NCBI GenBank assembly: GCA_017482565.1
Contig: JAFUMO010000002.1
Location: forward strand, 1 to 49,762
Reading direction: 5' to 3'
DNA length: 49,762 nucleotides
Source of the DNA: Bacteroidales bacterium
GTDB lineage: Bacteria; Bacteroidota; Bacteroidia; Bacteroidales; UBA932
In this document: piece after piece, positions 22,732 through 48,911 of the stretch
Position numbering within the stretch: the first letter of the stretch is position 1
Layout: each line of letters opens with the position of its first letter
Made by a program: the position numbers and the translations under genes
The notes under the pieces: model-generated
The model's input: the letters and a program-made list of their open reading frames with translations, nothing else
What the model was told of the DNA's origin: nothing
Databases searched by the model: none

Positions 22732-24765
22732 TTATCCTTTTAGCCTTTCCAGAAATGACGGGAAAGATTTGTCTATACATTTAATGTTGTCCAGGAGTAT
22801 CTCCTTTCCGCAGAAGAGGGCGGCAATGTAAAGTGCCATTGAAATCCTGTGGTCGTTATGGCCACATCCAAGAACCGGCGCCACTCCTCCCGACAGAGGA
22901 TCTGCCCCATTTCCGCAAATATACATCTTATCTCCCTCAATGTGTATGCCGTAGCCCAATTTTGCAAGCTCGCAATATACGGTTTCCGCCCTGTTGCTCT
23001 CTTTCTGGGCCAGTCTGTCCACCCCTTCAAATACGGTCCTTCCTCCGCTGTGGGCCGCCAGCAGGGCCGCTATAGGGAAGAGGTCCGGGCAATCCTTCAG
23101 TGAAGCTTCCACCACCGCATCCTCCCGGGAAACTGCCACCCCAGGGCGCGGAGATATCTCCACATCAGAGCCATTTACTGAAACTCTATATCCGTAAAGT
23201 TCCAGCAGCTTCAATATGAATTCATCAGCTTGGACGGAACTGAGCGGCATATTCTTCAGCACAACCCCATTTGAAAGGGCCCCTGCAACTGCAAAGTTTG
23301 CGGCTGAGCTCCAGTCTGAATCAAGCCATATCCTGGCCGGGGTGTACTTCTGCCCTCCGCGGATGTGATATGTAATTTTATCGGGAAGGGATTCCTTAGA
23401 TTTTATCTCTATGCCGAACTGCCTTAGCACCCTCAGGGTAAGCTCTATGTACGGCAGACTGGCAGGGTTGGTGATTGTAAGGGTTGAGTCCTCCTCCAGC
23501 AGCGGCAGGGTCATCAGGAACCCGGAAACTATCTGGGAGCTCTCCTTCCCCGAGAACTCAATGTTGCGGCGGGTTATTCCCCCTCCTATCCTGAACGGGA
23601 GGTATCCTCCATTTGTACAGCATTGTGCACCCGCAGCCTCAAGGGCCTTCACAGACTCCCCGAGATTCCTTTTCAGGATGCTCCCCGTACCGGTAATTTC
23701 AATCTCCTTCTCCCCTCCCGACAGGTAAGCCGCCATAGGGATCAGAAGGCGGGTGAGCAGGCCGCTCTCCCCTGTGAATATCTTTCCTGCCCCCCTGAGC
23801 GATTCAATCCCGGCGCTTTCTACAGTAAGTGTCCCCTCATTGAGGGAAACCCTTGCCCCAAGCGCCTTTATCACCTCTACGGCCCCGGAAATGTCGTTGC
23901 AGGGCTCAAAGTTCTCCAGTACGCTTGTACCGTTGGCGAGCGCTGCCGCCAGGACAGCCCTCTGGGCTATGCTTTTTGAGCATGGGATGTGTACCTCAGG
24001 CTTTCCGGCAAAGATTGTCTCTTCCAGCCTCAAGGTTGTGTACGGGTAATTTGCAGGCTCCAGCAGCCTCTCCATCTCCTCCCTGGCATATTGCCCGGGA
24101 GCCGTTGCCGATTCCGCATCAAGCGCCGCGTATGTATACGGTGCCCCGAGCTGCAGGCACAGGTGGCGGGTGAACTTCCCTGCCTCCCCCATGCAGAAGG
24201 CCACAAGTGAGGCCTGCTCCTCCCCGAAGCTGTTGCTCAGGGAGCCCGAGAGCTCCCCATGTTCCATAAAATTGCAGGGAACCAGCTCACGGTCAGATTT
24301 CTTGTAGCTGTAGAGCTGCATTGTGCGGCAGGCATCTGAAATGTTGTTGGCAGTGGTTACAATCTTCACTATATCTGCACCCTTGCGTCGGCAGAGATCA
24401 TATATGGCCTTAAGCTCCTCCAGATCCTGTGTCCCCTCAAAATTATGGTAGGAGATCACAAGTCTGCAGCCGTTTGCCCTTGCGTATGACTTTATGTACT
24501 CCAGATGGTCTACGGGTGCCTCAATCTCCACATCCACATATTTGGCACCCTTCTTTATTGCAGCCACCATCTGCTCACGGGCAACAGCCTGGGTGCTGCC
24601 GGCTATCCTGTGGGTATAGAGGAGGTTCGGATGCCCCTGCACCAGTTTCTCTATCTGTTGTGTGGTGAAGTTGCAGAGGTCTCCCCTCAGCTCAACCATG
24701 CCGCATTGTGCAAGTATCCCACTGCACCTGCCGAAATCCTTTTCCTGAACACTAACGCAAACCAT
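22732..24765 (-). CDS. aroDA: 3-dehydroquinate dehydratase (type I) / EPSP synthase fusion
   Basis: One 677-residue chain with two shikimate-pathway enzymes. Residues about 1-230 are a type I dehydroquinate dehydratase: VELRGD with the substrate Glu, ISYHNFEGT with the catalytic His, DIVKIVTTANN with the Schiff-base Lys, and a C-terminal part with GKFTRHL and SATAPGQ. From about residue 245 follows EPSP synthase (AroA): HIPCSKSIAQRAVLAAAL, GESGLLTRLLIP, SSQIVSGFLMTLPLL, DSDWSSAANFAVAGAL, QKESNRAE, NDHRISMAL and KCIDKSFPSF. Both active sites look complete. A short linker (NYPYTTLRLEE) joins them with no stop or frame change. ATG at 24765 overlaps the aroB end by 14 bases and has AAAGGAG upstream; a TTG six bases earlier is less likely. 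The fusion is noteworthy because the two are normally separate proteins. Confidence 0.94.
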   Translation of the reverse strand: MVCVSVQEKDFGRCSGILAQCGMVELRGDLCNFTTQQIEKLVQGHPNLLYTHRIAGSTQAVAREQMVAAIKKGAKYVDVEIEAPVDHLEYIKSYARANGCRLVISYHNFEGTQDLEELKAIYDLCRRKGADIVKIVTTANNISDACRTMQLYSYKKSDRELVPCNFMEHGELSGSLSNSFGEEQASLVAFCMGEAGKFTRHLCLQLGAPYTYAALDAESATAPGQYAREEMERLLEPANYPYTTLRLEETIFAGKPEVHIPCSKSIAQRAVLAAALANGTSVLENFEPCNDISGAVEVIKALGARVSLNEGTLTVESAGIESLRGAGKIFTGESGLLTRLLIPMAAYLSGGEKEIEITGTGSILKRNLGESVKALEAAGAQCCTNGGYLPFRIGGGITRRNIEFSGKESSQIVSGFLMTLPLLEEDSTLTITNPASLPYIELTLRVLRQFGIEIKSKESLPDKITYHIRGGQKYTPARIWLDSDWSSAANFAVAGALSNGVVLKNMPLSSVQADEFILKLLELYGYRVSVNGSDVEISPRPGVAVSREDAVVEASLKDCPDLFPIAALLAAHSGGRTVFEGVDRLAQKESNRAETVYCELAKLGYGIHIEGDKMYICGNGADPLSGGVAPVLGCGHNDHRISMALYIAALFCGKEILLDNIKCIDKSFPSFLERLKG

Positions 24766-25831
24766 CTGCAATCTCCTTTATCTTTTCCAATGGAAGCATG
24801 ATGTCCTCCACATCCTGAATCCCCTTGGGGAGGATGAAATGGATGCCGCTTCCTGTAACTTTCTTGTCTTTTTTTACCGCATCTGCAAGGTCTGCAATCC
24901 TCAGGTGCGATGTGGCCGGGCACTCATCAAGCACTGCAGGGAGCCCCACACTGCGCAAGTCATCCTCCACACCCCTTACAAACGCCTCGTCCGCCTTGCC
25001 CAAGGCTACAGCCACCTTTGCTGCAATCACCATACCCATACTCACGGCATATCCGTGGGAAATCTCCCCTCCTGTGAGCTTCTCAATGGAATGGGCAAAA
25101 GTGTGCCCCAGATTGAGCAGCCTCCTCTCCCCCCTCTCAAACTCATCCCTCTCCACAACGCCGCATTTATATTCCGCACACTTCCCGATAATTTCTGTGA
25201 GCAGCCCTCCATCAACCTCAGAGGCTACAGCTCCGTATGGCTTTCCATTGCCCCCCCGTGCCGCATATCTGCGGGAAACTTCTGCAAAGAACTCCACGGC
25301 CTTGCGGTAATTCTCCTTGTCAAACAGCATGAATGTCTTGAGCACCTCCGCAATCCCCGCCTTGAACTCCCTTTCGGGAAGAGTGGCGAGCATATCTGAG
25401 CAGATATATATCCATTGCGGCTGGTTGATTGTACCCAGAATGTTCTTGTAGGAGTGGAAGTTCACTCCGTTCTTGCCACCTATGGAGGCATCCACCTGCG
25501 CCAGGAGCGTGGTAGGTACAAAAGCAAACCTTACCCCCCTCTTGTAGATTGATGCGGCAAATCCGGTAACATCAGTGGTTATCCCACCACCTATGCCAAC
25601 TACAAGGGCATCCCTGTCTGCCCCGTTTTCAAGGAGCCACGAAGCAATCTGTGCAACGGTATCCAGAGTCTTCACCTGCTCGGAAAACTTTAAGCAAAAT
25701 ACGGGAAATCCTGCAAAATTTTCCGCAATATGTTGCAAATTGTTATCAATTATTACAAAAGTACACCCCTTTTCTAACAGGGTTTCACGCAACATATTGA
25801 TACTCTTGTGGGTATAAATTACGCTCTTCAT
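24752..25831 (-). CDS. aroB: 3-dehydroquinate synthase
   Basis: Converts DAHP to 3-dehydroquinate (NAD and divalent metal dependent). The 359-residue protein has VVGIGGGITTDVTGFAASIYKRGVRFAFVPTTLLAQVDASIGGKNGVNF, here covering the NAD site and the active-site DASIGGK motif, then GIAEVLK and LNLGHTFAHSIE with the metal-binding His. A short Gly-rich insertion (ARGGNGKPYGAV) occurs after the EVSRRY helix. It is the first gene of the aroB-aroDA-aroC operon, transcribed away from the Phe/Tyr operon across a 107-base spacer. Confidence 0.95.
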   Translation of the reverse strand: MKSVIYTHKSINMLRETLLEKGCTFVIIDNNLQHIAENFAGFPVFCLKFSEQVKTLDTVAQIASWLLENGADRDALVVGIGGGITTDVTGFAASIYKRGVRFAFVPTTLLAQVDASIGGKNGVNFHSYKNILGTINQPQWIYICSDMLATLPEREFKAGIAEVLKTFMLFDKENYRKAVEFFAEVSRRYAARGGNGKPYGAVASEVDGGLLTEIIGKCAEYKCGVVERDEFERGERRLLNLGHTFAHSIEKLTGGEISHGYAVSMGMVIAAKVAVALGKADEAFVRGVEDDLRSVGLPAVLDECPATSHLRIADLADAVKKDKKVTGSGIHFILPKGIQDVEDIMLPLEKIKEIADGLR

Positions 25832-25898: not shown

Positions 25899-25929
25899 TT
25901 TGGAACTTACACTAAAATACATAAATTTG
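25899..25929 (+). promoter_or_regulatory. Promoter of the Phe/Tyr operon
   Basis: TTTG (25899-25902), 19 bases, TAAATTTG (25922-25929) is an exact match to the Bacteroidota promoter. The expected start is about 25933, only some six bases before the ATG of the leader peptide, so translation can follow RNA polymerase almost at once. Confidence 0.85.
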
Positions 25930-25938
25930 TCCTCAGAT

Positions 25939-26019
25939 ATGAGACAACACCGATTTACATACTTCTTCTTTTATTACTTTTATCAGGGAAACATGGTAAA
26001 GGCGGGAGCTTGTATGTAA
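25939..26019 (+). CDS. Phe/Tyr leader peptide of an attenuator
   Basis: A 26-codon reading frame starting six bases after the predicted transcription start. Residues 5-16 read RFTYFFFYYFYQ: nine of ten consecutive residues (6-15, Thr 7 excepted) are Phe or Tyr (five Phe, four Tyr). The stop TAA lies 21 bases before a terminator. The gene sits directly in front of the operon that makes Phe and Tyr. By analogy with the pheA/trp leader peptides of enterobacteria, ribosome stalling at these codons when charged tRNA-Phe or tRNA-Tyr is scarce would report amino acid shortage. The peptide itself probably has no other role. Chance occurrence of such an aromatic run exactly here is very unlikely. Confidence 0.88.
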   Translation: MRQHRFTYFFFYYFYQGNMVKAGACM

Positions 26020-26073
26020 TGAATTGATAATTGATTTATGGACTCCTGCCTTTTGGGCGGGAGTCTTTTTTTT
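25998..26073 (+). promoter_or_regulatory. Attenuator: antiterminator and terminator of the Phe/Tyr operon
   Basis: Terminator: GACTCCTGCC (26041-26050) pairs with GGCGGGAGTC (26056-26065), 10 bp with one G-T, loop TTTTG, then eight Ts. Antiterminator: AAAGGCGGGAG (25998-26008), inside the last codons of the leader peptide, pairs with CTCCTGCCTTT (26043-26053), 11 bp with one G-T, taking the left arm of the terminator. The two cannot coexist. A ribosome stalled at the last aromatic codon (ends 25983) leaves the 25998 arm free, so reading continues. A ribosome at the stop codon (26017-26019) covers that arm, so the terminator forms. No separate pause hairpin was found. Confidence 0.87.
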
Positions 26074-26115
26074 CAAGTCATTCAAACTGGGAATGACAAC
26101 AGGAAGAATACACTT

Positions 26116-26979
26116 ATGAAAAAGAAAGTGGCAATACAGGGAATAGGGGGCTGCAACCATTATATTGCGGCCAAGCTGTTCTTCAAGGATGACAACATAG
26201 AAACCATAGACTGTGATACGTTCAAGGAGCTGGCAGAGCATGTGGTGAAGGATCCTTCAAAGCTGGGGATCATGGCAATTGAGAATACAATTGCGGGAAG
26301 CCTGCTGCAGAACTACAAGATATTGAAGGACAACAAGCTGGTAATTGTGGGCGAGTACAAGCTGAGGATTACACACGCCCTTGTAGCAATGCCGGGGGTG
26401 GAGCTTAGGGATATCAGGGAGATTAATACCCACCCGATGGCATTCATGCAGTGTGAGGAGTTCCTCAACACCCTCCCCAATGTGAAGCTTGTGGAGAAGG
26501 AGGATACCGCCGGCAGCGCAAAATGGATAAAAGAAAACAACCTCAGGGACCACGCCGCAATATGCCCGGCAGGAGCTGCGGAGCTGTATGGGATGGATGT
26601 GCTGGCAGACGGCATAGAGACAAACAAGAGGAACTTCACAAGGTTCCTTATCCTGGCAAACAGGGATGTGGCAGCAGATGTGCTCAGGGACCTGAGCGTG
26701 GAGCAGGAGAACATAAACAAGAGCTCCATGGTATTTACCCTTCCGCACACCAGCGGAAGCCTTTCAAAGGTTCTGGCAGTGCTTTCATTCTATGACATGA
26801 ACCTTTCCATGATACAGTCCATGCCTATAGTTGGAGAGGAGTGGAGATACCAGTTCTATGTGAACCTCCTCTTTACAGATTACAAGAGATACAGACAAGC
26901 CATTGATGCAATCCTTCCCCTTACAAAGGATTTTGAGATTCTGGGTGAGTACATGGAGGGTGAGCAATCGGTACAATAA
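26116..26979 (+). CDS. pheA: Prephenate dehydratase
   Basis: Converts prephenate to phenylpyruvate. The 287-residue protein starts MKKKVAIQGIGGCNHYIAAKLFF and has IAIENTIAGSLL-like MAIENTIAGSLLQN, the catalytic NFTRFLIL, and a C-terminal ACT domain from about residue 195 (SSMVFTLPHTSGSLSKVLAVL). In the ACT domain the usual ESRP element is replaced by QSMP, so Phe feedback may be different. The ATG at 26116 is chosen because frames further upstream run through the attenuator terminator; AGGAAG precedes it. The stop overlaps the next ATG by one base (TAATG), suggesting translational coupling. No chorismate mutase domain is fused to it; that activity sits on the DAHP synthase two genes on. Confidence 0.95.
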   Translation: MKKKVAIQGIGGCNHYIAAKLFFKDDNIETIDCDTFKELAEHVVKDPSKLGIMAIENTIAGSLLQNYKILKDNKLVIVGEYKLRITHALVAMPGVELRDIREINTHPMAFMQCEEFLNTLPNVKLVEKEDTAGSAKWIKENNLRDHAAICPAGAAELYGMDVLADGIETNKRNFTRFLILANRDVAADVLRDLSVEQENINKSSMVFTLPHTSGSLSKVLAVLSFYDMNLSMIQSMPIVGEEWRYQFYVNLLFTDYKRYRQAIDAILPLTKDFEILGEYMEGEQSVQ

Positions 26980-28160
26980 TGGAAGATATGAAAAAGATAG
27001 TTCCGGCAAACAGGATAGGTAACGTACAGGAGTACTACTTTTCCGTAAAACTGAAGGAGATTGCGCAGATGAACGCGCAGGGGGCAGATGTCATAAACCT
27101 TGGCATAGGAAGCCCCGACCTGCCCCCTGCAAAGGAGGTTACAGATACCCTTGCACAGGAGGCTGCAAACCCCAAGGCCCACGGCTACCAGCCGTATGTT
27201 GGTATCCCGGAGCTCAGGAATGCCTGGGCACAGTGGTACCGCAGATGGTACAATGTGGAGCTGGACCCTGCCAATGAAGTATTGCCCCTGATAGGGAGCA
27301 AGGAGGGCATAATGCACATTTCAATGGCCTTCATAAATGAGGGGGATGCGGTGCTGGTACCAAATCCGGGCTATCCTACATATTCTTCAGTATCAAAACT
27401 GGTTGGGGCAAAAATCATAAGCTATGACCTGAGCGCAGAAAACGGGTGGCAGCCCGATTTTGAGGCGCTTGAGGCACGCCACGCCGCAGGGGAGATTGAC
27501 CTTGGCGCAGTGAAGCTGATGTGGTGCAACTACCCCAACATGCCTACCGGCGCGAACGGCTCGGTGGAGCTTTTTGAAAAGCTGGTGGCCTTTGGAAAGA
27601 AATATGGCATCATTATCTGCCATGATAACCCCTACAGCTTCATCCTCAACGACAATCCGCTCAGCATCATGAGTGTTGAAGGGGCCAAGGATATCTGCAT
27701 TGAGCTCAATTCAATGAGCAAGAGCCACAACATGCCGGGCTGGCGTATAGGAATGGTGGCCTCCAACAGGCAGTTCATCGAGTGGATCCTTAGGGTAAAG
27801 AGCAATATGGATTCAGGAATGTTCCGTCCTATGCAGCTGGCTGCAGTGAAGGCACTTGAGGCTCCCCAGAGCTGGTACAGGGAGATGAACAAGGTATATC
27901 AGGCCCGCAAGGACCTGGCCCGTGCAATCCTTGAGAAGGTGGGGGCAGAAGTTGCTCCGGAGCAGGTGGGGCTTTTCCTCTGGGGAAAGGTTGCCGGCAG
28001 GGGGGTTGACATCTGCGATGATGTCCTCTACAAGGCAAAGGTATTTATCACCCCTGGATTCATTTTCGGGTCCAACGGGGAAAACTACATAAGGATTTCC
28101 CTCTGTGCCAATGAGCAGACACTTGCCGGGGCACTGGAGAGGATAAACAGGGAACTTTAA
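26979..28160 (+). CDS. Class I/II PLP aminotransferase, probably aromatic/aspartate
   Basis: A 393-residue fold-type I aminotransferase: VINLGIGSPDLPP at the N-terminus, GYQPYVGIPELR, GSKEGIMHIS and VPNPGYPTY, then the conserved Asn of WCNYPNMPTGA, the Asp of CHDNPYSF and the PLP-binding Lys in SMSKSHNMPGWRIG. The best-fitting job from its place in the operon is transamination of phenylpyruvate and 4-hydroxyphenylpyruvate to Phe and Tyr; sequence alone would also allow aspartate or diaminopimelate transaminase. Two ATGs are possible (first, or fourth codon MKKIV); the first overlaps the pheA stop. Confidence 0.88.
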   Translation: MEDMKKIVPANRIGNVQEYYFSVKLKEIAQMNAQGADVINLGIGSPDLPPAKEVTDTLAQEAANPKAHGYQPYVGIPELRNAWAQWYRRWYNVELDPANEVLPLIGSKEGIMHISMAFINEGDAVLVPNPGYPTYSSVSKLVGAKIISYDLSAENGWQPDFEALEARHAAGEIDLGAVKLMWCNYPNMPTGANGSVELFEKLVAFGKKYGIIICHDNPYSFILNDNPLSIMSVEGAKDICIELNSMSKSHNMPGWRIGMVASNRQFIEWILRVKSNMDSGMFRPMQLAAVKALEAPQSWYREMNKVYQARKDLARAILEKVGAEVAPEQVGLFLWGKVAGRGVDICDDVLYKAKVFITPGFIFGSNGENYIRISLCANEQTLAGALERINREL

Positions 28161-28190: not shown

Positions 28191-29246
28191 ATGGAAATCA
28201 ATAAATTGAATTTACCGGGAATAGATGCTTCAGAGCGTCCTATCATTATTGCAGGCCCTTGCAGTGCAGAGAGCCGCGAGCAGGTTTTGAATACAGCAGA
28301 AGAACTGGCCAAGAACGGAGTTAAGATCTTCAGGGCAGGAATCTGGAAACCGCGTACCAAGCCGGGCGGATTTGAGGGTGTAGGTACAGTGGGACTCCCT
28401 TGGCTGAAGGAGGTGAAGCAGAAGACCGGCATGCTTGTGGCTACTGAGGTGGCAACCGCCGCTCATGTATTTGAGGCGGTAAAGGCAGGCATTGATATCC
28501 TCTGGATTGGCGCCAGGACAGCTGCAAACCCGTTTGCAATGCAGGAACTTGCAGATTCACTGAAAGGTACTGATATACCTGTGCTGGTGAAGAACCCTGT
28601 AAACCCGGATCTTGAACTTTGGATAGGAGCCCTGCAGAGGCTTGTGAACGCAGGTGTTACAAATGTGGGTGTAATCCTCCGCGGATTCAGCACTTACGAC
28701 CAGAAGCTTTACAGGAACCTCCCATTGTGGCACATCCCTATTGAGCTCCGCCGCAGATACCCTAACATCACAATGTTCTGTGACCCGAGCCATATAGGTG
28801 GCAGGAGGGAGCTTGTGGCACCCATCTCGCAGCAGGCAATGGACCTGAAGTTCGATGGCCTTATGGTGGAATCACATTGTAATCCCGACGAGGCATTGAG
28901 TGATGCCAAGCAGCAGATAACACCGCAGGTACTTGATTTTACACTAAAAATGCTCGTTTTGAGAGAGAATGTACAGACAACGGAGAACATATCCGTTCTG
29001 CGTAAGCAGATAGATGAAATAGATGAGCAGCTCCTTACAATCCTTGCAAAGAGGAACAGGATTTCAAGGGAGATTGGCATGTACAAGAAAGAGAACAACA
29101 TGCCTGTGCTCCAGACAGGACGTTACAATGAGATCCTTGAGAAGCGTGCCCAGATGGGTGAGGCCATGAACCTTGACAAGGAGTTTGTGAACGCCATAAT
29201 GAAGAGCATCCACGAGGAGTCTGTAAGGATACAGCTTGCCCTTTAA
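28191..29246 (+). CDS. aroF: DAHP synthase / chorismate mutase fusion
   Basis: Residues about 1-260 are a type I-beta, KDO8PS-like DAHP synthase: IIIAGPCSAES, GIWKPRTKPGGFEG, IGARTAANP, LVKNPVNPDLELWIGA, VILRGFSTYD, FCDPSHIGGRRE and MVESHCNPDEALSDAKQQI. Residues about 270-351 are an AroQ-type chorismate mutase: SVLRKQIDEIDEQLLTILAKRNRISREIGMYK, with the Arg and Lys that bind the substrate. The enzyme thus commits PEP and erythrose 4-phosphate to the pathway and turns chorismate into prephenate. This domain order is known from Bacteroidales such as Prevotella, where the mutase domain also serves in allosteric inhibition. Its location inside the attenuated operon places the first pathway step under Phe/Tyr control. 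The gene symbol is the nearest conventional one. Confidence 0.94.
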   Translation: MEINKLNLPGIDASERPIIIAGPCSAESREQVLNTAEELAKNGVKIFRAGIWKPRTKPGGFEGVGTVGLPWLKEVKQKTGMLVATEVATAAHVFEAVKAGIDILWIGARTAANPFAMQELADSLKGTDIPVLVKNPVNPDLELWIGALQRLVNAGVTNVGVILRGFSTYDQKLYRNLPLWHIPIELRRRYPNITMFCDPSHIGGRRELVAPISQQAMDLKFDGLMVESHCNPDEALSDAKQQITPQVLDFTLKMLVLRENVQTTENISVLRKQIDEIDEQLLTILAKRNRISREIGMYKKENNMPVLQTGRYNEILEKRAQMGEAMNLDKEFVNAIMKSIHEESVRIQLAL

Positions 29247-29297: not shown

Positions 29298-30113
29298 ATG
29301 AGGATACTTATTCTGGGGAATGGAAAGATGGGCTCTTTCTTCTCCGATCTGCTCAGCTTCAACCATGAGATTGCGGTTTTTGAGAAGGATCTCAAGAGGA
29401 TGCGCTTCATATACAATGCGCTCAGGTTCTCCTCTTATGAGGAGGTAAAGGAGTTCAAGCCTGAACTGGTGATAAACTGTGTCACCCTCAGCTATACCAT
29501 TGAGGCGTTCAGGGATGTGATTCCGCATCTGCCGGAAAACTGTATCCTTTCTGACATTGCCTCCGTAAAGACCGGCCTAAAGGAGTTCTATGAGGGGTGC
29601 GGGTTCAGGTATGTATCCGTACACCCCATGTTCGGCCCTACATTCGCCAACCTGGGGAACCTCCAGACAGAGAATGCCATCATAATCAACGAGCCGCAGC
29701 AGAAAGGGGCTTCCGGGGAGGTACTGGTGAAGGGTACAGATTATATGGGAATGATCTTCTACAGGGACCTTTTTGCATCTCTGAAGCTGAATGTCCGCGA
29801 ATACACCTTTGACGGGCATGATGAAGTGGTGGCATATTCACTCTCCATCCCGTTTGCCTCCACCCTGGTGTTCGGCTCAATAATGAAGCACCAGGAGGTA
29901 CCAGGCACCACATTCAAGAAACATCTGGCAATCGCCCACGGGCTGCTGAGCGAGGATGACTACCTCCTCACCGAGATCCTCTTCAACCCAAATACCAACG
30001 GACAGCTGCAAGGAATCATTGACAAGCTGAACGAACTGAAAGGGATTGTTGCAGACAAGGACAGTACCGCCATGAAGGCATTCCTGGACGGCGTAAGGGA
30101 GAGGGTGAAGTAA
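29298..30113 (+). CDS. tyrA: Prephenate dehydrogenase
   Basis: Oxidises prephenate to 4-hydroxyphenylpyruvate for Tyr. The 271-residue protein has the NAD-binding start MRILILGNGKMGSFFSDLLS (GxGxMG), CVTLSYTIEAF, LSDIASVKTG and SVHPMFGPT with the catalytic His region, then the helical dimer domain (DEVVAYSLSIPFAS). It has no fused mutase or ACT domain. Last gene of the Phe/Tyr operon, 51 bases after the DAHP synthase fusion, and ended by a long inverted repeat. Confidence 0.93.
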   Translation: MRILILGNGKMGSFFSDLLSFNHEIAVFEKDLKRMRFIYNALRFSSYEEVKEFKPELVINCVTLSYTIEAFRDVIPHLPENCILSDIASVKTGLKEFYEGCGFRYVSVHPMFGPTFANLGNLQTENAIIINEPQQKGASGEVLVKGTDYMGMIFYRDLFASLKLNVREYTFDGHDEVVAYSLSIPFASTLVFGSIMKHQEVPGTTFKKHLAIAHGLLSEDDYLLTEILFNPNTNGQLQGIIDKLNELKGIVADKDSTAMKAFLDGVRERVK

Positions 30114-30266: not shown

Positions 30267-32783
30267 TTAAAGGGTAAGCTTCACGCCGAATGCGCAGTTG
30301 CGCCCCTGCCCCCAGTAGCCGGTAAAAGTGTTGATGGTGTGGTCCGCACCGTCTTTTCCGCGCTCAATGTACCACTCGTCAAAGAGGTTGTTCAGGTTGA
30401 AGAACAGGTTCATCCCAAGGGCCTTTTTGCCCATCATGAAATGGCGCTGGTAGCTTACGCTCAAGTTTACCAGATTGTAGTCGGGGATGCGGTAAGGGTC
30501 TGTGCGGTCAGAGGCGTTTGTCCTGGTGTTCGGCTCAAAGTCCGCCCAGTATCTGGCGTTGTAGCTCCATCCCACCTGCAGATAGAGTTCCCCCGATTTT
30601 GCATAGCTCAATGTGCCCGTAGGGTCAACCATTGAGTAGCCGCTGAGGGCCGCAAGCGGTGTGAATGTAAGGCTCGCGCCTATCTGGGTCTGCGGAGCGT
30701 CACCTACAGGAAGGCCGTCGCTGTAAACGTTGATTTCCTGAGCCACCTGTCCTGTGTAGTTGTCATAGATTATTGCGCTCACATCATTCTTCCACTCCCA
30801 TTTTCCTATTGAGGCGTATGCGGCCAGCTTGCCCCATCTTGCAAAGTTATAGTAGGCATCAACCTCCACGCCGTAGTGGAATGCATCCAGGCCTGTAATC
30901 ATATATTTGTAGGCCTCCTCCTCAAGCGGCTTGTAAGGGGAGCTCATTATGGACTTGTTCTTCCAGTAGCTGGCGTAGATTGTAGCCTCTACCCCACCCC
31001 TGTTGAAGAGGCTGCGCACGCCTGCCTCACCAAGGTAGTTCTGCTCATTCTCCACCCCTTCCGATATCTGGTTGTTGCCGCTTGCAAAGAATACATTTGA
31101 ATAAGGGACCCTGCTGTAATATGCCCCGTTCATGTACAGGCTTGTAGAACGTGATGCCCTGTAGAGTGCTCCTGCCTTTACAGCCCCGCCTATACCGGTT
31201 GCCCAATCGCTCTTTATGTCTGTAATGTAGTTGTACTTGTCCCACCTCCGGGTGGTTGACCCGTTCAGTGAAGCACCCAGCTCCACGTTCCAGTCTGTGC
31301 TCTTGTATGCCAGCGAGGCATATAGGGTTCCAAAATGGATGTTCTTTCCGTTACGGGTACGGATATAGTCCCCCACCTTCTTTATTGAGTTCCTGCCGGC
31401 CTGCCCTGCAAGGGATTTTGTGGCATAATCCTCATACCAGTACTCACCTCCCAGCAGATCTGTAATCTGCTCCTTCTCCCAGGTGAAATAGCCCTGGTAA
31501 TGGAGGCCGCCGCCCAAGGTGAACCTGTTGGAAAGCTCAAGGTCAAATGCGCTCTTTGCCCCAACCTGGGTATGTCCTGCTATGTAATCGCTCAATGCGT
31601 TCTGTGCGGATTTCTCCTTCTCTGTTGTTCCGGTCCTGTAGGCTTCCCTGTTCTCCGCTACAACTGCATCCCAATCCACATGGCCGTTTTTCTGATGTGC
31701 CGCAATGGAATGTCCCTTTGTCTCTGTCCAGTATCCGCCACCATGCGCAATGGCCAGATATACCGCATTGTTTACCGAAAGGTTGCGCTGGGCTGCACCC
31801 ACCTTCCTGTTGTAGTAGTGGTTCAGGGTAAAATATGGCTTGTGGTAGTTGTTGCGGCTGATGCTGCGGGCCTCTTTTGAGCCGTCGGGAAGAGTGATGT
31901 ATCCCCAGTTCTTGCTGTAGTCCCTGCCGTACTCCTTCACCTCATCATATTTGAGGCGTGCGGACCTCTGGCTGTGCTTCTCCGGAGAGCCCATAACTGT
32001 AAGAAGGAGGGAGTGGTTCCTGTTGATGTTCTTGCTGATTGAGGCCAGATAAGACCATGCATCCACATCTGTACACTCCACCCAGCTGCTGCCCCATACG
32101 CGGGATACAAGGAGGGAAATGCCCCATCCTTTTCCAAGGTCTCCGCTGTTGTAGTTAACGAATGCCTTTGAAGTTCCGCCTCCGGCATAGTTGTAGCCCA
32201 CTCCGTATGAAGGGGTCTTGCCCGGGCTCTTGGTGACGATGTTTATGCTGCCTCCAACCGAGTTGTCGCTGAGCATGCTGCCTCCCACACCTTTCTGCAC
32301 CTGTATGGTTGCAGTTGCATCTGTAAGGCCCAGCCAGTTGTTCCAGTACATGCTGCCGCTGGTAAGTCCTGAAATTGGAATGCCGTTCAGGAGCACGGAA
32401 ATGTTCTCCTGTTTGAATCCGCGGATATTTATCTTGGCATCTCCGTAGCTTCCGGTCTCTGCAGTTGCATAGATGCCCGGAATATCCTTCAGCAGTTCAG
32501 GATAGGTGCGCCCCGCAGCCTGTACTGCAATTGTCTTTTCATCAATGTCCACAAGCCTCAGGGGGGAAGAGTTCCTCTTCTTTACTCCCGACGAAACAAT
32601 GATCTCCTTTATGAGGATTGAAGTATCGGGGAGCTGTACGGCAGGTTTCCCCTCCAATGTCTCCACTGGGGTTGTTTTCTTATCCTTGATGTTTGGGTTG
32701 TTGTCTGCTGCCTGAACACCAGTTGAGGCAACGCAAAATAGAAGCGCCGCAGCGCAAAGCTGAGTGTAAAATTTTTTGAACAT
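30267..32783 (-). CDS. TonB-dependent receptor under FMN riboswitch, candidate flavin transporter
   Basis: An 838-residue outer-membrane receptor of the ordinary TonB type (not SusC). Signal peptide MFKKFYTQLCAAALLFCVASTGVQA; plug domain at about 75-190 with LLKDIPGIYA, INIRGFKQENISVLLNGIP and VGGSINIVTK; then a barrel ending FGVKLTL. The ATG at 32783 begins the signal peptide; the frame upstream of it is riboswitch RNA, not protein. The gene is alone in its transcript. Because an FMN riboswitch controls it, the likely cargo is riboflavin or a related flavin; no published substrate is assigned here, and no inner-membrane partner is adjacent. A metal-chelate ligand remains possible. Confidence 0.9.
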   Translation of the reverse strand: MFKKFYTQLCAAALLFCVASTGVQAADNNPNIKDKKTTPVETLEGKPAVQLPDTSILIKEIIVSSGVKKRNSSPLRLVDIDEKTIAVQAAGRTYPELLKDIPGIYATAETGSYGDAKINIRGFKQENISVLLNGIPISGLTSGSMYWNNWLGLTDATATIQVQKGVGGSMLSDNSVGGSINIVTKSPGKTPSYGVGYNYAGGGTSKAFVNYNSGDLGKGWGISLLVSRVWGSSWVECTDVDAWSYLASISKNINRNHSLLLTVMGSPEKHSQRSARLKYDEVKEYGRDYSKNWGYITLPDGSKEARSISRNNYHKPYFTLNHYYNRKVGAAQRNLSVNNAVYLAIAHGGGYWTETKGHSIAAHQKNGHVDWDAVVAENREAYRTGTTEKEKSAQNALSDYIAGHTQVGAKSAFDLELSNRFTLGGGLHYQGYFTWEKEQITDLLGGEYWYEDYATKSLAGQAGRNSIKKVGDYIRTRNGKNIHFGTLYASLAYKSTDWNVELGASLNGSTTRRWDKYNYITDIKSDWATGIGGAVKAGALYRASRSTSLYMNGAYYSRVPYSNVFFASGNNQISEGVENEQNYLGEAGVRSLFNRGGVEATIYASYWKNKSIMSSPYKPLEEEAYKYMITGLDAFHYGVEVDAYYNFARWGKLAAYASIGKWEWKNDVSAIIYDNYTGQVAQEINVYSDGLPVGDAPQTQIGASLTFTPLAALSGYSMVDPTGTLSYAKSGELYLQVGWSYNARYWADFEPNTRTNASDRTDPYRIPDYNLVNLSVSYQRHFMMGKKALGMNLFFNLNNLFDEWYIERGKDGADHTINTFTGYWGQGRNCAFGVKLTL

Positions 32784-32786
32784 GAC

Positions 32787-32918
32787 TTTAAAATTTTCTT
32801 CCATCCAGACTTTAACTGTTGGTACCGTAGTTTCAACGGTTCCACCTTCGGCTTGCGCCTCAGGGTCGCGGACTTTACCGCCAGTGGGGACTTCCACCCC
32901 GCCCCGGAAATTTTAATA
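32787..32918 (-). ncRNA. FMN riboswitch (RFN element)
   Basis: Read on the - strand, the conserved core blocks of the FMN aptamer appear in order: GGGGCGGGGTGGAAGTCCCC, ACTGGCGGTAAAGTCCGCGA (32866-32885), a variable stem, GGTGGAACCGTTGAAACTAC, GGTACCAACAGTTAAAGTC and TGGATGGAAGAAAA. The closing stem is TAAAATTT with AAATTTTA. Its 3' strand lies only a few bases before the receptor ATG and there is no room for a terminator, so control is probably at translation initiation (FMN bound: start region held in structure). FMN riboswitches normally govern riboflavin synthesis or uptake genes. Confidence 0.93.
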
Positions 32919-47505: not shown

Positions 47506-47821
47506 ACAATTTTTCTTTTAAAGAGTTAAAGACACAAAAATATGGCTATTATTGCGCCACTGTGCCCATTCCCAATACCAACAGGACTTTCTCTACTCCC
47601 TCATTTTGAAAATCAAAAATCCATCCGTAACTTTATAAAACAAATCCTGACAGTCACATGCTGACATCAGGATTCTCTTATGTTTATTTTTCGTATTTCT
47701 ATTCACATCCCCTTAAACCTTTCTTCTGTTTCCTTGTTATACAAGTGAAATAGTTTTTTAAGTTAGGTTAAGTCGGGCAAACCCTACAGTCTCGGGATGA
47801 GGTTGTGGGGTTTGTTTTTAT
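47506..47821 (+). other. Gene-free spacer with hairpins, including a terminator on the + strand
   Basis: No convincing coding sequence. It holds an 8-bp inverted repeat AATCCTGA/TCAGGATT (47643-47674) and, at 47778-47820, an 11-bp stem CAAACCCTACA/TGTGGGGTTTG (one G-T) followed by TTTTTATT. The latter is a good intrinsic terminator only on the + strand, yet no + strand gene precedes it; a small RNA or lost gene is possible. Confidence 0.5.
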
Positions 47822-48911
47822 TTACTTTGCCAATGTAATGCCTACAAACTCATAACCTTTCCTTGTCTGTTTTTTATCAGTATATTCCACAAAATTAGCT
47901 TTCTTGACATCTTCAAAGTCTCCATAAAAATGTAATGTTATATATCGAGCCTTTGCCGATACTGTCCCTCCTCTAAAATGAGACGTTCCTTCTATCTTTG
48001 AGATCGGACACGCTCCATTTTCAGTTATTAAAATGGATTTCTTTGCAGGAATATGCCAAGATGCATTTTCTGTATTATACAAACATAAGATTAACTCATC
48101 TTTATTATTTTGAGCATATAACACTCTTACTGAAGGATGTTTTAACGACCGACTTATATGCTTAGGTTTATAAATAACCTTTGGATGAATAAACCTTTTT
48201 TCAATATACAGATTAACCATCGGATCTTCATCATTAATCATATATTCTATTTTTGCCCCAGTACTTTCCCCAATATGCTTAGTAGACGAATAAGCCAAAA
48301 TAGGAAAAACTTTCCTTAAATCATCACTATATCCATCACTTGTTACTGTTAGATTAAAGACTGGCTGTTCTGGATTAGATACGTTAAAAGCATATAAGTC
48401 AAAATTTCTATGGTAATTCTCTACTCTTTGCTCAACACTCCTATAACCTGTAACACCATAAGTCGGAGATACTGTTGTTGTGGTATTAGTGGTTGAACTT
48501 CCATACGCATTTCCGTATGCTGTACTAGATGATTTATTCCCAGTCACTGATATATTTCCAAACGCATTTCCAGAAGATGTTGACCTCGTATTAATTGTAG
48601 CCCCTGTTTGTCCCCATGCAGGCACACTTCGAGTGGCCATATATGATTGATCCGAAATACCATTAGTTCCGCCTTTTCCAAAGTTTCCGCAGCCTTTGCG
48701 CCTTTCATCACCATTGATTGTACTATCTACTCCGCAAATTCTCTAAACTGCAAATCATTATCATTAACACTTTCATCCCCAGACAAAACATAGAAATATT
48801 TTCCCAAGACATCATAATTTCCATATGAGTCAACTTCTACAGAAAAATTCTGTGCCATTAACGAGCTAGCAAAACACATTAAGATGGTTACTACCAAAAA
48901 ATTATTTTCAT
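47822..48911 (-). pseudogene. Broken gene for a secreted protein with Ser/Thr/Asn/Gly-rich segment
   Basis: Three pieces of one protein in different frames. Start: ATG at 48911, MKIIF, then the frame is lost in a run of six Ts (one more T would give LVVTILMCFASSLMAQ, a good signal peptide, then NFSVEVDSYGNYDVLG). Next, the second piece meets TAG at 48727-48729 (FREFAE, stop, IVQSMVMKGAKAAETLEKAELMV). Third, near 48665 the frame shifts again to GISDQSYMATRSVPAWGQTG and runs 272 codons and more to the normal end (GITLAK). The region after the signal has a low-complexity stretch (SSGNAFGNISVTG, SSSTAYGNAYGSSTTNTTTT). I recall intact Bacteroidales proteins of this layout; function unknown. Either a decayed gene or sequencing errors. 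Confidence 0.7.

Follow-up and report, generated by a model that had tools for sequence, protein, structure and literature searches.

The intergenic region between the divergent aroB and pheA genes of this Bacteroidales genome very probably carries a ribosome-mediated transcription attenuator of the trp/his/phe kind, one that reads charged tRNA-Phe and charged tRNA-Tyr together and controls a pheA–aminotransferase–DAHP synthase–tyrA operon. Its parts, their conservation and covariation, their geometry, and the match between leader codons and operon genes have all been computed, and by its anatomy it is in all likelihood a real and conserved Phe/Tyr attenuator that uses a known mechanism. The window referred to below is the whole stretch of 49,762 nucleotides that was analysed, from a 2.1-Mb assembly of 70 contigs that is 89% complete; the switch region, as read from the sequence, occupies window positions 25899–26116. 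The features of the switch and its neighbours are as follows.

24752..25831, minus strand: aroB, the divergent neighbour, outside the control of the switch (Pfam; TIGR01357, 301.4 bits, just below the cut-off of 305)
25899..25902, plus strand: −33 promoter element, TTTG (sequence)
25922..25929, plus strand: −7 promoter element, TAAATTTG (sequence; start site predicted)
25939..26019, plus strand: leader peptide ORF of 26 codons, MRQHRFTYFFFYYFYQGNMVKAGACM (translation; ATG at 25939, stop codon ending at 26019)
25954..25983, plus strand: sensor, codons 6–15, FTYFFFYYFY, with nine Phe/Tyr in ten codons (translation)
25955..25962, plus strand: left arm of the outer protector (1:2) helix, within the FTY codons (fold, alignment)
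25977..25985, plus strand: left arm of the inner protector (1:2) helix, within the last aromatic codons (fold, alignment)
25994..26002, plus strand: right arm of the inner protector helix, within which the antiterminator arm begins (fold, alignment)
25999..26008, plus strand: antiterminator left arm (segment 2), AAGGCGGGAG, pairing with 26043–26052
26012..26019, plus strand: right arm of the outer protector helix, GTATGTAA, holding the stop codon (fold, alignment)
26040..26066, plus strand: intrinsic terminator hairpin (segments 3:4), 12 pairs (terminator scan)
26043..26052, plus strand: segment 3, CTCCTGCCTT, antiterminator right arm and core of the terminator left arm
26066..26073, plus strand: run of eight Ts, predicted site of premature termination (sequence, terminator scan)
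26116..26979, plus strand: pheA, prephenate dehydratase, first controlled gene (PF00800, E 2.3e-51)
26979..28160, plus strand: class I/II aminotransferase, probably aromatic (PF00155)
28191..29246, plus strand: DAHP synthase fused to chorismate mutase (PF00793 and PF01817)
29298..30113, plus strand: tyrA, prephenate dehydrogenase (PF02153, E 4.2e-8, above its cut-off)

A preliminary description of this DNA had named the downstream genes as those for Phe and Tyr, and this is borne out by the Pfam and NCBIfam identification of the four operon members. The top NCBIfam matches of the aminotransferase are LL-DAP aminotransferases and fall under the cut-off, so we infer its substrate from the operon. 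Not only aroB but also aroD-aroA and aroC diverge from the pheA operon. Elsewhere in the window an FMN riboswitch (32789–32915, minus strand; Rfam RF00050, 106.3 bits), the only Rfam match of the window at gathering threshold, sits at the 5′ end of a TonB-dependent-receptor-like ORF (30267–32897; receptor named by eye), whose true start is probably further in and which perhaps takes part in flavin uptake.

Transcription would start just before the leader ORF, from a promoter whose TTTG and TAAATTTG boxes are spaced by 19 nt and resemble TTTG/TAnnTTTG, which we take to be the Bacteroidota promoter consensus; a sigma-70 promoter scan was uninformative, its model not covering Bacteroidota promoters. 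The consensus promoter first noted at this site recurs among relatives, with an exact TAnnTTTG within 80 nt upstream of 154 of the 185 leaders that have distinct upstream sequences (mean 8.3 and maximum 17 in 100 single-base shuffles), and with the same box plus at least three of the four bases of TTTG 17–23 nt further upstream in 144 of the 185. The distance from the −7 element to the leader ATG is 9 nt in the window and 8–9 nt in the four closest relatives displayed (L003–L006), and it is 16–36 nt in 137 of the 154 leaders having the box. Because the −7 element of the window lies only 9 nt before the ATG, its leader mRNA may itself be nearly leaderless.

Re-translation agrees with the 26-codon peptide, and with FTYFFFYYFY at residues 6–15, as first described, and the region thus contains a short ORF with a codon run for the products of the operon. 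This concentration of aromatic codons is above chance: when the 284-nt intergenic sequence was shuffled with its dinucleotides preserved, none of 5000 shuffles reached eight Phe/Tyr in ten codons from an ATG (observed nine, best shuffle seven), and with ATG, GTG or TTG starts eight was reached once in 5000 and nine never. Likewise, none of 6728 other 284-nt tiles from 80 named Bacteroidales loci reaches eight in ten codons. The peptide matched no Pfam or NCBIfam family at E 0.001. Within the window, only the leader and one site near 47.7 kb (seven) exceed five Phe/Tyr per ten codons. At the latter (47650–47830, plus strand) a short aromatic-rich ORF, MLTSGFSYVYFSYFYSHPLKPFFCFLVIQVK (by eye), precedes a terminator-like hairpin, and this site was considered as a second attenuator and set aside; the gene beyond it seems by eye to lie on the opposite strand, so the hairpin is likely a terminator between converging genes.

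An intrinsic terminator with eight Ts, as first reported, lies between the leader ORF and the first gene of the operon. Taken alone it is not beyond chance, since a plain terminator scan of a 2-kb stretch found two where 2.2 are expected; it exceeds chance in being conserved and in matching the upstream arm. That such hairpins are not rare in similar sequence would suit a constitutive partial terminator, or one serving the divergent aroB side, but aroB, with its start at 25831, points away from this hairpin, and segment 2 matches segment 3 beyond both swaps and shuffles, so that we find this explanation scarcely credible. The swap test used 83 of 84 non-redundant loci (L001, a copy of L002, and L097 were dropped) and gave a mean of −16.3 kcal/mol for segment 2 with its own segment 3, compared to −12.2 with the segment 3 of other loci and −7.75 when the segment was shuffled. 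Own pairing is better than the mean swap in 82 of the 83 loci (the exception is L006), and in 73 of them none of 50 shuffles is as good; L022 does no better than its shuffles.

The earlier proposal of an antiterminator that shares a strand with the terminator is confirmed, except that its first base lies 15 nt, and not 14, past the last aromatic codon; across the 83 loci the first paired base lies 7–18 nt beyond the run, with a median of 11, so an antiterminator that cannot coexist with the terminator follows closely on the sensor codons. The fold of the 142-nt transcript (z = −3.95) adds a part to those described earlier, a protector (1:2) hairpin that pairs the aromatic codons with sequence to either side of the antiterminator arm.

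Conservation of these helices was assessed in an alignment (A1) of 40 leaders picked from the 84 non-redundant loci, with the more divergent families left out. The terminator is paired in 98.8% of 400 cells (36 with a two-sided change), the antiterminator in 91.6% (31), the inner protector in 95.5% of 399 (20) and the outer protector in 84.4% of 257 (15). Three of the eight outer protector pairs are gapped in 21 of the 40 rows, and the end pair of the antiterminator (73–141) is unpaired in 22. For the fraction paired, the two-sided cells and the covariation score, none of 500 shuffles reaches the observed value in any of the four helices, these shuffles treating related genomes as independent. 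Slid versions score lower than observed in every helix, as a structure drawn from one aligned sequence tends to do against its slid versions. On a coarser measure, the number of pairs with a two-sided change, 29 of 500 shuffles reach the terminator and 242 of 500 the antiterminator, and the eight pair types of the antiterminator are not above shuffles (9.4). As judged from the aligned sequences, all helices covary.

A structured 5′ region ending in a terminator could also be governed by an RNA ligand or a protein, such as a T-box, a riboswitch or an antiterminator protein, in place of a ribosome, and a relaxed-threshold Rfam search of the leader region did return weak, sub-threshold matches (e.g. 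a PyrR site at 27.5 bits against a threshold of 54). These were its only matches; no Rfam family, T-box included, reaches threshold at the region, and control of this kind leaves the aromatic ORF and its codon tracking (below) without explanation. We consider it very unlikely.

In the attenuator that we favour, a ribosome on a leader with plentiful Phe and Tyr would pass codons 6–15, reach the stop codon and cover segment 2 (25999–26008); segment 3 would then pair with segment 4, and RNA polymerase would halt near 26073. When either amino acid is short, the translating ribosome would stall at an aromatic codon, leaving segment 2 free to pair with segment 3, so that no terminator would form and the operon would be read. 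In the absence of a ribosome, segment 2 may be hidden by the protector helices, in which the aromatic codons themselves form the left arms.

The geometry was examined by hiding a ribosome footprint in the RNA up to the terminator loop and folding the remainder at equilibrium, for 82 of the 83 loci (L028 was left out); a footprint of generally accepted size was assumed. In the window the antiterminator forms with a probability of 1.00 with the A site on codons 3–17, 0.17 on codon 18, and 0 from codon 19 to the stop, such that the calculated switch point falls three codons beyond the end of the aromatic run, whose last codon is 15. Over the 82 loci the median probability is 1.00 on the aromatic codons and 0.00 at the stop, and a ribosome at the stop lowers the antiterminator by more than 0.1 relative to a stall on the last four aromatics in 78 of them; the four without a drop (L087, L099, L121 and L148) have ORFs extending well past the arm. 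Without a ribosome the equilibrium antiterminator probability is 0.99 in the window, so readthrough would be expected of a leader that is not translated; the median for the 82 loci is 0.91, and in 39 the no-ribosome value is more than 0.1 below that with a stalled ribosome. The protector is conserved, but its calculated effect at equilibrium is weak.

The distribution of the attenuator is broad within the class. Alignment of the regions upstream of pheA in other Bacteroidales, which the preliminary description had put forward as a check, revealed both the aromatic ORF and compensatory changes in the stems. Within the genus, the leader is present in all 15 genomes that have a PheA match (14 of 36 others plus the window's own); the other 22 of the 36 have no PheA match, reflecting either loss of Phe synthesis or incomplete assemblies. 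Among named Bacteroidales, Candidatus Egerieousia being one of the relatives with a PheA match, 74 of the best 80 of 508 loci, which span Parabacteroides, Tannerella, Barnesiella, Coprobacter, Proteiniphilum and others, have the leader before pheA, and two more are cut short. Cultured carriers include Parabacteroides goldsteinii (L051) and P. gordonii (L049). In the other four (L033, L042, L043 and L100) pheA and its upstream region are present with no leader or terminator; by eye this upstream sequence seems to belong to another neighbour, so that a rearrangement may have removed the attenuator. Class-wide, the leader is found in 19 of the best-scoring 30 of 43 loci, with 11 of the 30 lacking it. 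In total, 138 loci (duplicates included) comprise 109 with a leader and a perfect-stem terminator, 11 with a leader and interrupted hairpins (by eye), and 18 without a leader, three of which are cut by contig ends.

A covariance model (R1) matches 97 of 295 genomes of the order, the window's own included. In the phylum it matches 21 of 198, with 20 inside the class (own included) and one, marginal, outside it. Weak matches are lost to the stricter filters applied in these searches, and some genomes may have no pheA; R1 also favours Phe/Tyr matches because Phe/Tyr leaders were used to build it. Each genome is counted singly throughout, related ones included, and the counts are not independent. 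As far as seen, the attenuator would be a feature of the Bacteroidia, and not a universal one.

The leader codons follow the genes that they precede. We examined 100 regions around R1 matches, with genes classed by tblastn using reference proteins, and counted codons in 97 (three loci, L183, L184 and L189, with trp, transporter and cys genes, were excluded); eight of the 97 end with their contig and are unclassified, leaving 89. Of 81 regions prepared, 80 were used (G496 was left out). Where pheA stands alone, all four loci (genomes G486, G667, G053 and G672, representing three families, with G486 and G667 of one genus) have 6–8 Phe and no Tyr in the ten-codon block, three of them carrying Tyr outside it (L181 and L182 in the tail, L276 at residue 3). 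In pheA-plus-tyrA operons, all 71 blocks contain Phe and at least two Tyr (mean Tyr 4.06), and where tyrA occurs without pheA all seven blocks have at least four Tyr, a Tyr share of 0.57; in seven loci that have pheA and DAHP synthase and show no tyrA, the share is 0.35. Tyr share correlates with operon class (Spearman 0.47, reached in 0 of 5000 permutations, n = 89, relatives counted singly).

G053 has leaders of both kinds, MTRFFTHFFFFFTQQ before pheA alone and MNNTFGYYAFYYYFFYNN before tyrA-DAHP synthase-aroB, and G053, G486 and G667 each pair a Phe-only pheA leader with a mixed leader before a separate tyrA operon. No tyrA was found in G672, and no pheA in G595, which is of the same family and has a Tyr-rich tyrA leader; both assemblies are about 90% complete. 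Three genomes (G558, G587 and G728) have the attenuator at a tyrA operon and a separate pheA with no aromatic leader within 330 nt. Overall, sensor codons match the controlled enzymes, a pattern that is otherwise hard to explain, and since the Phe/Tyr content follows the operon genes we infer that these codons are the sensor. This suggests a switch that gauges the availability of the amino acids under its control.

The finding of Phe blocks without Tyr where pheA stands apart also supports the initial proposal that mixed codons make one switch sensing both amino acids. It could be argued that the switch answers to one amino acid only, with the other codons carried as passengers of RNA pairing (UUUUAC with GUAAAG); the last codons, UUUUAC, do lie within the covarying protector helix, which places a structural constraint on this Phe-Tyr pair. 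Against this, Tyr is missing from the block where pheA is alone and its share rises with tyrA. Moreover, Phe and Tyr alternate more than in shuffled leaders (889 changes compared to 677, maximum 737, over 170 distinct mixed leaders), the pairing constraint possibly causing part of this and relatives being counted singly, and the last two aromatics differ in 129 leaders compared to 91 (maximum 112) in shuffles. Since the two alternate beyond shuffles, a shortage of either would be expected to stall the ribosome near the critical place, and we think a switch with a single input unlikely.

Wide conservation of the ORF might instead point to a functional aromatic micro-protein followed by an incidental terminator. 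Its length and non-aromatic residues vary, Phe and Tyr interchange freely with a content that follows the operon, and the conserved parts, KAGVCM at the C terminus and Thr in FTY, fall where the RNA arms lie; the chance that the peptide itself is the function seems very small.

Some loci carry the arrangement twice. In 17 of the 97 loci (L185, L186, L187, L188, L190, L198, L215, L222, L234, L239, L245, L248, L255, L256, L260, L268 and L272) the first aromatic leader is followed by another before pheA is reached, and R1 matched both copies in four genomes. A simple terminator finder placed a terminator after the first leader in 16 of the 17 and after the second in 12; two of its five misses there (L188 and L198) have interrupted stems by eye. 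Separate Phe and Tyr gates were considered and discarded, every listed leader mixing Phe and Tyr by eye.

Leaders for other amino acids are built similarly. The window's own genome has a His-run leader, MRLFTNIRHHHHHILQKIR, before hisG, with a terminator and an antiterminator (−19.1 kcal/mol; L111, C27), and a GTG-started Ile/Val-run leader, MSISIIALSVVVIIIPMMM, before ilvD, followed by a terminator (L117, C42), a hairpin read from the fold; the terminator script, within its loop limit, returned none there. Two Parabacteroides likewise have a His-rich leader at hisG and an Ile/Leu/Val-rich leader at ilvD. A Trp-Trp leader, MRTILVNTYWWRYLQLTKS, with a weak antiterminator (−8.3 kcal/mol), precedes a PALP enzyme (likely trpB) and anthranilate synthase I in G515 (L183); in the 89%-complete assembly of the window's own genome PF04715 has no match, leaving no trp locus there in which to look for such a leader. 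In G632 (L189) a leader with CCCC lies before genes for a hexapeptide transferase and an enzyme of the PALP family, likely cysE-cysK, and may be a Bacteroidales cysteine attenuator; mycobacteria are known to have polycysteine leaders. An R1 match in G734 (L184), with a terminator-like hairpin by eye before an EamA-family transporter, was set aside, its leader having no clear amino acid run. There is perhaps an even chance that one modular chassis serves as the general amino acid gauge of the Bacteroidia, its sensor codons rewritten to suit the downstream genes (Phe and Tyr, Phe alone, or Tyr-rich, with separate leaders for His, Ile/Leu/Val, Trp and Cys) and its frame doubled in some lineages, where two ribosome-read gates in series would sharpen the response.

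The 1:2 / 2:3 / 3:4 layout, with stall codons in segment 1, is that of the enterobacterial trp, his, thr and ilv attenuators, two of which, thr and ilv, have leaders responsive to more than one amino acid; the window switch shares this layout but differs in its amino acids, its phylum and its Bacteroidota promoter. A close counterpart is the pheL-pheA leader of E. coli (RF01859, Phe_leader), where a run of Phe codons and competing antiterminator and terminator also precede pheA. pheL reads Phe alone, before a pheA-only unit, whereas the window leader carries Phe and Tyr and precedes a joint operon; at 19.3 bits against a threshold of 55, the window leader is not a member of RF01859 by sequence and structure. 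The two leader ORFs of Salmonella mgtCBR respond to different signals, unlike the tandem pairs of the Bacteroidia, in which both leaders carry Phe and Tyr. Attenuation across bacteria was reportedly treated by Lopatovskaya et al. in 2010, which may bear on priority. Translation of the two short mgtCBR ORFs is thought to set the stem-loops that control transcription, according to PMC3641672.

Within the Bacteroidota, a 2021 study of Flavobacterium psychrophilum (PMC9723704) describes, in the portion available, strong clues for leader-peptide attenuation before amino acid operons, and also conserved structured 5′ elements before pheA and hisG that are common to other Flavobacteriaceae and have no Rfam match; that portion gives no leader sequence, amino acid assignment, codon tracking or tandem copies. 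The preliminary description knew of no worked-out Phe/Tyr example in the Bacteroidota, and this holds insofar as we found no description of a Phe-plus-Tyr leader in the open literature, in the portions available and with most subscription papers outside coverage, but the attenuation clues and the pheA 5′ element were already in PMC9723704. Leader-like short ORFs are noted in 5′ regions of Bacteroides thetaiotaomicron, with no amino acid case given in the accessible part of that source (PMC7366714). A 2010 report adds a Firmicutes case, leader peptides having previously been shown, to its authors' knowledge and in the extract available, only in Proteobacteria and Actinobacteria (PMC2965389). 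The candidate structured RNA called the "pheA motif", given with a question mark and for Actinobacteria only (PMC2864571, available in part), has the name pheA in common with the window leader, the two being set side by side by description. The mechanism is textbook; what the present analysis adds to PMC9723704 is the Phe-plus-Tyr reading, the codon tracking, the tandem copies and the breadth.

Attenuation of this kind seems both common and under-described in the class. The switch offers a testable model of one RNA metering two costly amino acids in a major gut group whose 5′ regulation has, so far as literature searches show, received little detailed study. The split operons are a natural experiment, in which codon content checks the attenuation model without touching the cell, and the tandem copies make it possible to ask what is gained by placing two gates in series. 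In uncultured Bacteroidia, the leaders can further serve as markers when operon specificity is annotated.
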